Shown: one piece after another, positions 41,238-41,501 of the stretch
How positions within the stretch are numbered: the first letter of the stretch is position 1
Layout of the letters: every line of letters starts with the position of its first letter
From: Lunatimonas salinarum
GTDB taxonomy: Bacteria; Bacteroidota; Bacteroidia; Cytophagales; Cyclobacteriaceae
DNA length: 64,000 nt
Direction of reading: 5' to 3'
NCBI RefSeq assembly: GCF_017811155.1
Contig: NZ_JACVCV010000007.1
Location: forward strand, 124,001 to 188,000
Notes under the pieces: generated by a model
The model's input: only the letters and a program-made list of their open reading frames with translations
Told to the model about the DNA's origin: nothing
The model's database searches: none
Translations under genes and position numbers: made by a program

Positions 41238-41269
41238 TTTGTAAAAAATCGATTCATGTGCTACCTTTG
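41238..41269 (+). promoter_or_regulatory. Promoter TTTG-N20-TACCTTTG of the tRNA-like RNA
   Basis: TTTG at 41238-41241 and TACCTTTG at 41262-41269 separated by exactly 20 bases: a near-perfect Bacteroidota housekeeping promoter. Transcription should start at about 41275, some 40 bases before the folded RNA. Confidence 0.75.
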
Positions 41270-41313
41270 AGATATCAAACAAAGACAAAACGTGTCGAAA
41301 AGTTTGTTGACAA

Positions 41314-41437
41314 TGTAGGATGATGAAACTGGCAGACATGCCCTCCGGTCTCGGGGGTGGGGAGCTAAGGACAAAGCAAACATGGAGCTCGTGTTTTGCC
41401 TAACTGCCCCGTGGAGGTTCGACTCCTTCTCCTACAG
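41314..41437 (+). ncRNA. tRNA-like RNA (Leu-like) with enlarged variable arm and aberrant anticodon loop
   Basis: A 124-base element with tRNA architecture: acceptor stem TGTAGGA/TCCTACA (7 of 7 pairs, 41314-41320 with 41430-41436), T8 and G9, D arm ATG-AAACTGGCAGA-CAT containing G18-G19, and T arm GGAGG-TTCGACT-CCTTC (5 pairs, canonical TTCGA). The D arm and general form resemble tRNA-Leu. The anticodon stem would be CCCTC/GGGGG, but its loop CGGTCTC lacks U33. The variable region is far too long: GGGG (41359-41362) pairs with CCCC (41407-41410) around about 44 bases with a further imperfect hairpin (GCAAACA with TGTTTTGC). No CCA is encoded. It has its own promoter and terminator. It may be a degenerate tRNA, an allo-tRNA-like form, or a regulatory RNA. 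Confidence 0.6.
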
Positions 41438-41468
41438 CAGGTTATTTTGGGTTTATTGTTAATTGACT

Positions 41469-41501
41469 AAAGCTATGAGACATTGTTTCATAGCTTTTTT
41501 T
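41469..41501 (+). terminator. Intrinsic terminator of the tRNA-like RNA
   Basis: AAAGCTATGA pairs with TCATAGCTTT around a short loop and runs into TTTTTTT. It lies 32 bases after the folded RNA and before any coding gene. Confidence 0.8.

Follow-up and report, generated by a model that had tools for sequence, protein, structure and literature searches.

A conserved tRNA-like RNA of Bacteroidota and its possible role as a carrier for asparagine synthesis

The 64,000-nt stretch of Lunatimonas salinarum DNA analyzed here (the window) contains a sequence with the outer architecture of a tRNA, an enlarged variable arm, and an anticodon loop that lacks U33. This raises the question of whether the locus is a decaying tRNA gene, a decoding tRNA of unusual form, or an RNA that is kept for some other use.

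Structure, transcription signals, and conservation of the RNA

Direct reading of the sequence confirmed the intact acceptor stem (7/7 paired), D and T arms, T8, and G18-G19 that a sequence-only reading had reported, as well as the oversized GGGG...CCCC variable arm, whose closing strands enclose 44 nt. The anticodon stem, CCCTC/GGGGG, has 5 bp, and the RNA has the 7-bp acceptor, D, anticodon, and T arms of a cloverleaf. ARAGORN called no tRNA in the window, and Rfam gave no gathering-level match there and no RF00005 (tRNA) match at the window RNA or in 20 loci, with one Rfam scoring round covering 150 of 284 candidates; run on 20 loci, ARAGORN called only a short form found in genome G048. At E values up to 10 over 321 bases, nothing came near an Rfam gathering score, and the best match, mir-355 (E = 0.00046; 29.7 of 70.3 bits), falls on the terminator, off the RNA. 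The tmRNA model scored 8 bits on the window RNA, against a cutoff of 47, and folding of the single sequence gave no signal (z = 0.13, from a slice starting two bases late).

Table 1. Features of the tRNA-like RNA locus, in window positions
Feature	Position	Strand	Basis or remark
Bacteroidota-type promoter: TTTG 41238-41241 and TACCTTTG 41262-41269	41238..41269	+	sequence
tRNA-like RNA, tRNA positions 1-73, including a 52-nt variable arm	41314..41437	+	covariance model R1 match, 132.7 bits
Acceptor 5' strand TGTAGGA (U1, G2), pairing with TCCTACA 41430-41436	41314..41320	+	U1-A72 and G2-C71 each in 93/93 copies
D arm: 3-bp stem ATG/CAT, loop AAACTGGCAGA with G18-G19	41323..41339	+	A-U to U-A swap in 3/18 sequences
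Anticodon arm CCCTC-CGGTCTC-GGGGG	41341..41357	+	G34, U35, C36, and C38 kept; N33 and Y37 ill-suited to decoding
Enlarged variable arm: V1 GGGG 41359-41362/CCCC 41407-41410, short V2, internal loop ANAAA/CUAA, hairpin V3	41359..41410	+	pairs changed on both sides: V1, 2; V2, 2; V3, 5
T arm GGAGG-TTCGACT-CCTTC	41413..41429	+	sequence; loop types tallied in 160 copies
Discriminator G73 and encoded C74	41437..41438	+	each in 93/93 copies
Intrinsic terminator AAGCTATGA...TCATAGCTT, then T run	41470..41501	+	sequence

The proposal that the RNA is its own transcription unit stands insofar as a promoter and a terminator frame it, with the promoter assigned from what we take to be the Bacteroidota consensus; the promoter is this TTTG plus TACCTTTG element and not TTGACA (41307 to 41312). 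TAnnTTTG is found no more than 80 nt upstream of 122/196 host copies, versus a mean of 14.4 (maximum, 23) in shuffled sequences, and a T run of at least 5 lies within 80 nt downstream of 148/191 host copies. C74 is also encoded in all 32 tRNA genes of the same genome that we compared (Ala-GGC alone encodes the whole CCA), so the 3' end of the RNA is likely to mature like that of a tRNA. Between the RNA and the terminator, TTTTGGGTTTATTGTTAATT (41445 to 41464) and its relatives recur in host 3' trailers, and TTTGGGTT lies within 80 nt of the RNA in 44/194 host copies and 0/67 viral copies.

The genome that holds the window (5.46 Mb, 166 contigs) contains four copies of the RNA: the window copy, two at 99% identity, and one at 77%. 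Compared in pairs, the three close copies are similar over 241 to 294 bp and their flanks diverge beyond that, while the fourth copy has a D stem altered on both sides and has U33. By blastn, 44/59 genomes (this one included) have matches, often in several or tandem copies. A pattern scan of GTDB contigs returned at least 119 stretches, and the matches listed are from Bacteroidota by record title, including Dyadobacter, Spirosoma, Cyclobacterium, Algoriphagus, Marivirga, Flammeovirga, Chitinophaga, and Saprospiraceae; a corresponding scan of viral contigs returned 94 stretches. A covariance model, R1, built from 18 sequences, matched every one of the 80 viral loci (of 94) to which it was applied, with 79 at 71 bits or more (one, L209, being cut by the contig end) and the match in L231 cut to 47 nt; since these loci were preselected by pattern, 79/80 is no prevalence figure. 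We found no blastn match in INPHARED phages with two viral copies as queries or in PLSDB plasmids with the window copy as the query.

In the alignment of 18 sequences, the 32 pairs of the fold are 96% paired, and 12 of them are changed on both sides, in five of the seven helices (acceptor, D, V1, V2, and V3); the anticodon and T stems show one-sided variation only. The number of both-side changed cells is 58, compared to 18.4 ± 4.1 in shuffled alignments and 2 to 14 in slid controls. V1 has 4 bp, V2 has 3 bp and is the weakest helix (81.5% paired), and V3 is a hairpin of variable length. The sequence-only reading had taken the fold to be under selection and had asked for homologues with compensatory changes; such homologues exist, and these changes (58 versus 18.4), the four copies in the window's genome, and the matches in 44/59 genomes bear the claim out. 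The outcome it had set against this, a decaying tRNA-Leu pseudogene, fits a D arm that by inspection looks like that of tRNA-Leu from the same genome. Its probability is close to nil, given the covariation, the spread over 44/59 genomes, promoter conservation, and the viral copies, which show a structure under selection, and Rfam models make no tRNA call.

The long arm is itself variable. In genome G048, a 76-nt form lacks it but keeps U1-A72, G73, C74, and U35-C36-Y37-C38, and ARAGORN calls this form tRNA-Asp; thus, a member of the family can do without the long arm. An extra GTTGACCAC-like hairpin is present in 58/67 viral and 52/194 host copies found by motif, and self-complementary stretches of at least 10 nt lie in the variable arm of 19/39 viral copies, versus 2.6 (maximum, 9) in shuffled sequences, with one N-containing copy dropped from the count. 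The viral palindromes (for example, in L196 at 2553 to 2723) differ in sequence and could be a loop-loop dimer site. We rejected them as a general dimer signal, as host copies have 13/120 versus 7.4 (maximum, 20) in shuffled sequences.

Bases kept and lost

To count bases, we used R1 matches in 88 loci that were found by blastn, by whole-genome model search, or through the Lrp gene, with no loop motif. The 129 matches gave 95 distinct sequences and 93 full copies after removal of 34 duplicate and 2 truncated rows, although R1 itself leans toward its own consensus in these counts. Regular-expression counts fix U35, C36, Y37, and C38 by construction and miss copies with U32, so they were not used for those positions; the motif-copy counts leave out 8/329 arms without a parsable acceptor, and pairing percentages are inflated there because the acceptor 5' strand was picked by pairing.

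U1-A72, G2-C71, U3-A70, U35, C36, C38, G73, and C74 are each present in all 93 full distinct copies. G34 is present in 85/93 and replaced by A, C, or T in the other 8, with A in the short G048 form. Decoding needs U33 and a purine at position 37. The window copy, with loop CGGTCTC, has G33 and T37 and so lacks both features. Position 37 is a pyrimidine in 93/93 copies (T in 89, C in 4), and position 33 is T in 64, G in 18, A in 7, and C in 4. Thus, pyrimidine 37 is the constant non-decoding trait, and only some copies have G33: the reported lack of U33 is correct for the window but does not define the family, 64/93 copies of which keep U33. The idea of a tRNA mimic in which the decoding part is altered and the outer architecture preserved is supported by the pyrimidine at position 37 and the mixed bases at position 33.

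These counts also bear on whether the RNA is an ordinary or missense-decoding tRNA for Asp, Leu, or Ser. The cloverleaf, an anticodon that is usually GUC, U33 in 64/93 copies, and the ARAGORN assignment of the short G048 form to tRNA-Asp would suit such a tRNA, and the ordinary host tRNA-Asp loop, CTGTCAC, is one base off the commonest loop of the RNA, CTGTCTC. However, position 37 is a pyrimidine throughout, position 33 varies, and an ordinary tRNA-Asp pattern is present in 16/19 genomes (absent in G000, the window's genome, and in G001 and G008), so we regard this explanation as very improbable. The same 16/19 count, with viral arrays that carry both RNAs, led us to reject the RNA as the genome's missing tRNA-Asp.

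YrlA, a bacterial Y RNA, is a small RNA with a tRNA-like module and a tRNA mimic. The RNA described here shares such a module but differs in having an ordinary acceptor end, G73-C74, and Rfam gave no match at the RNA, either here or at 20 loci. Allo-tRNAs and selC* tRNAs have longer acceptor stems and decode. In contrast, our RNA has ordinary 7/5 acceptor/T arms instead of 8/4 or 9/3 and has lost decoding features, so the suggestion of an allo-tRNA-like form did not hold; what the two have in common, going by PMC7609411, is a long variable arm in an unusual bacterial tRNA.

According to a review (PMC9976931), the identity elements for Asp are G73, G34, U35, C36, and C38, plus G1-C72 and G2-C71, and amidation of Asp-tRNA(Asn) by GatCAB has U1-A72 as determinant and G1-C72 and U20a as antideterminants. 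The window copy has G73, G34, U35, C36, and C38. Among the 93 copies, G2-C71 is invariant, but the 1-72 pair is U-A in every one, so the full Asp set is not present. U1-A72 is present and G1-C72 and U20a are absent, as in a GatCAB substrate; we infer A20a from the D loop, GGCAGA, by tRNA-Leu numbering. Judged by its bases, the RNA matches all of the Asp and amidation determinants in that review except G1-C72.

Co-occurrence with GatB and absence of AsnB

We ran R1 on 395 genomes of the phylum, counting matches of 69 bits or more as members of the family, while matches of less than about 60 bits and 83 to 86 nt were regarded as ordinary class II tRNAs, which we left uncounted. The RNA is present in 40/395 genomes, or 41 with the short form of G048, which was first seen only as a 64-bit match, so RNA-negative status could mask short forms. 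The 41 positive genomes comprise 38 of 98 from the class of the window's genome and 3 from one family of another class. GatB (PF02934), the subunit scored in the same 395 genomes to represent GatCAB, is present in 41/41 RNA-positive genomes. Within the class, it occurs in 38/38 RNA-positive and 3/60 RNA-negative genomes (G099 and, by weaker matches, G210 and G257); in genomes from outside the class, it is common for GatB to occur without the RNA. In G210 (contig C43 near 20867) and G257 (contig C26 near 10918), the two RNA-negative genomes with a weaker GatB match, ORFs of about 1,120 amino acids contain a subthreshold AsnRS-like part.

We compared further enzymes in 75 genomes, comprising all 41 RNA-positive genomes and 34 of the 60 RNA-negative genomes of the class; since these genomes are related, p-values overstate their independence. 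GatB was present in 41/41 and 3/34, respectively. In contrast, AsnB (query from G191; E up to 1e-60) was found in 0/41 RNA-positive and 26/34 RNA-negative genomes; 24 of these 26 calls are at 69% identity or more, those in G351 (50%) and G111 (41%) are less certain, and the AsnB frame of G087 contains stops. AsnA was present in 5/41 and 7/34, AsnRS in 75/75, and GlnRS in 33/41 and 33/34. Among the GlnRS-positive genomes, GatB was present in 33/33 RNA-positive and 2/33 RNA-negative genomes and AsnB in 0/33 and 26/33, respectively. Because those genomes have both GlnRS and AsnRS, GatCAB should be unneeded by any decoding tRNA.

At the genus level, AsnB is present in 0/27 RNA-positive and 21/27 RNA-negative genera. 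Family f22 contains both states, with the RNA and GatB but no AsnB in genera g75 and g77 and the reverse in g63 and g82. The exceptions G075, G103, and G172 are without the RNA, GatB, AsnB, and AsnA alike. TIGR01536 homologues occur in 75/75 genomes, 67 above the cutoff, and the forms of 590 to 690 amino acids in RNA-positive genomes could make asparagine; the RNA-positive genomes G375 and G206 have only very weak TIGR01536 homologues and no AsnA. By sequence, the AspRS enzymes of 5 RNA-positive genomes did not differ clearly from those of 2 RNA-negative ones, with one AsnRS locus (L366, in G095) left out of the comparison.

In the genome that holds the window, AsnA is present and GlnRS is missing; of the 5 RNA-positive genomes with AsnA, 4 lack GlnRS. 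Because GlnRS is absent, this genome needs GatCAB to make Gln-tRNA, and with AsnA present as well, the RNA is not shown to be its sole route to asparagine; this genome is therefore a weak case for the sole-route claim.

Candidate functions and the gene neighborhood

Asp-type charging marks, an Asn-type amidation mark, no decoding loop, the absence of AsnB, and a GatCAB that is mostly otherwise unneeded together make an asparagine carrier the best fit. We put the probability at about 0.6 that the RNA is a decoding-dead tRNA that is loaded with Asp, then amidated to Asn, and so serves as a carrier for asparagine synthesis. AspRS would load Asp by way of G34-U35-C36-C38, G2-C71, and G73, and GatCAB would convert the RNA-bound Asp to Asn, owing to U1-A72 and the missing tRNA-Asp antideterminants G1-C72 and U20a. 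On the ribosome, the Asn-loaded RNA would insert Asn at Asp codons; loss of purine 37, frequent loss of U33, and the bulky variable arm may keep it off. As a dedicated carrier, the RNA would substitute for AsnB, with Asn freed by hydrolysis or handed on, and phages may carry it to sustain Asn supply in infection. Against this reading, the G1-C72 pair of tRNA-Asp is absent from the RNA and G34 is not universal, and a carrier role leaves the conserved variable-arm motifs and the viral palindromes unaccounted for. In addition, PMC4206432 proposes that such genomes synthesize asparagine on tRNA-Asn with a nondiscriminating AspRS, a route that would need no extra RNA.

That paper describes work on Bdellovibrio showing tRNA-dependent Asn synthesis on tRNA-Asn by nondiscriminating AspRS and GatCAB, and Bacteroidetes already appear in its list of genera that lack Asn synthetase while having AsnRS, GlnRS, and GatCAB. 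Our proposal resembles the systems of Bdellovibrio, Deinococcus, and Thermus in AspRS loading, in GatCAB amidation through U1-A72, and, by the same paper, in genomes with AsnRS and GlnRS and without Asn synthetase; it differs in the carrier, which there is tRNA-Asn itself and here, by our proposal, a distinct RNA that lacks decoding features and whose anticodon is of the Asp type. If asparagine were made on tRNA-Asn in this way here too, an AspRS-charged, GatCAB-bound RNA could instead be a scaffold that assembles an Asn transamidosome or a sensor that reports Asp/Asn levels to an Lrp/AsnC circuit. The same GatB and AsnB co-occurrence fits this reading, PMC4206432 places Bacteroidetes among genera with U1-A72 tRNA-Asn as well as the enzymes above, and the conserved variable-arm motif suggests a putative binding site. 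However, the G048 form without the long arm still keeps the ends and the loop, several or tandem copies (at least 2 in 45/169 host loci) suggest a substrate needed in quantity, and the charging positions stay while the decoding positions are lost, all of which makes a scaffold or sensor unlikely.

Upstream of the RNA, an Lrp/AsnC-type gene lies divergently on the opposite strand in half of the host loci (85/169, counting loci with a parsed copy, of which those from one genome may overlap), with identical geometry in all 85. The 60 nearest such genes are 98 to 168 bp from the RNA; one member was assigned by Pfam (PF01037 and PF13412) and the others by its blastp cluster. Of 30 Lrp loci from 39 searched genomes, 17 match the RNA strongly and 1 weakly, and the Lrp gene of the window's genome (contig C89) has no RNA alongside, as in two other searched genomes of the genus. 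A diverged copy (L349, 1129 to 1237, minus strand; 32.9 bits) adjoins the Lrp gene in G010, with the acceptor and T arm retained and the anticodon arm altered. SufB lies downstream in 37 loci. If the adjacent regulator controls the RNA gene, this would suit a role in amino-acid supply.

The named recurrent neighbors are the Lrp/AsnC gene, suf genes, an acyl-CoA ligase, and a pseudouridine synthase. The lack of a transferase among them argues against the RNA being, like other dedicated non-decoding tRNAs, an Asp or Asn donor for nonribosomal transfer to a lipid, the cell wall, or a peptide, and such a donor does not by itself explain the absence of AsnB; we consider it quite unlikely, even though the retained charging set and the lost decoding speak for it. 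Staphylococcal non-decoding tRNA-Gly genes serve cell-wall bridges. Our RNA is like them in being a tRNA kept for nonribosomal use of an amino acid and unlike them in the amino acid, arm architecture, lineage, and proposed product.

Viral copies bring in the possibility of a tRNA decoy that shields hosts or phages from anticodon or tRNA-tail nucleases. The presence of the RNA in 79/80 pattern-selected viral loci would fit, as would the results for 12 viral loci scanned, in which L185, L196, and L214 hold about 19 to 25 ARAGORN tRNAs, L185, L214, and L221 encode tmRNA, and L189, L161, and L195 show no ARAGORN gene in the scanned stretch. The RNA is, however, also chromosomal, promoter driven, and often next to the same regulator gene, and a decoy predicts neither the GatCAB linkage nor the loss of AsnB, so the chance that it is a decoy appears slight.

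Other tRNA-like elements lie at some of these loci. The tRNA arrays of L175, L185, L196, and L214 contain both the RNA and an ordinary tRNA-Asp pattern, and GOLLD RNAs are near the same arrays in L185 (6933 to 7342) and L196 (8203 to 8609). Stretches in L169 (5130 to 8052, minus strand), L173 (10174 to 10808, plus strand), and L175 (4907 to 5973, plus strand) share a tRNA-Leu-like 5' part (AGTCAGGTGGCG...) and a 3' part (ACAGGTTCGAATCCTGTCCTGACTA or near it) around unrelated middles, and look like tRNA ends flanking variable payloads. In the window's genome, L303 (about 180 to 930, contig C122) and L289 (82 to 510, contig C100) contain tandem tRNA-like units, spaced by about 103 bp in L303. 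In the anticodon region of these units, CAT precedes the palindromic insert ATCCGCCTAGGCGGAC, and ARAGORN assigns the final L303 unit to tRNA-SeC.

In the open-access literature, we found no description of such an RNA in titles and abstract starts among the matches listed, a scope that mostly excludes subscription papers and preprints, and the long-armed form is missed by ARAGORN and Rfam as run here. A broader version of the carrier proposal, to which we give slightly less than even odds, is that a tRNA became a dedicated cofactor of amino-acid biosynthesis and replaced AsnB in several Bacteroidota lineages, with its gene under the neighboring Lrp/AsnC regulator and its phage copies acting as a metabolic RNA gene. 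If the carrier reading is correct, the RNA would be a tRNA retained purely as a metabolic carrier and a natural test of whether recognition by AspRS and GatCAB is separable from decoding, and its viral copies would be an RNA counterpart to phage auxiliary metabolic genes. It would also account for the asparagine supply of many Bacteroidota that lack AsnB and for the retention of GatCAB in genomes that have both AsnRS and GlnRS.
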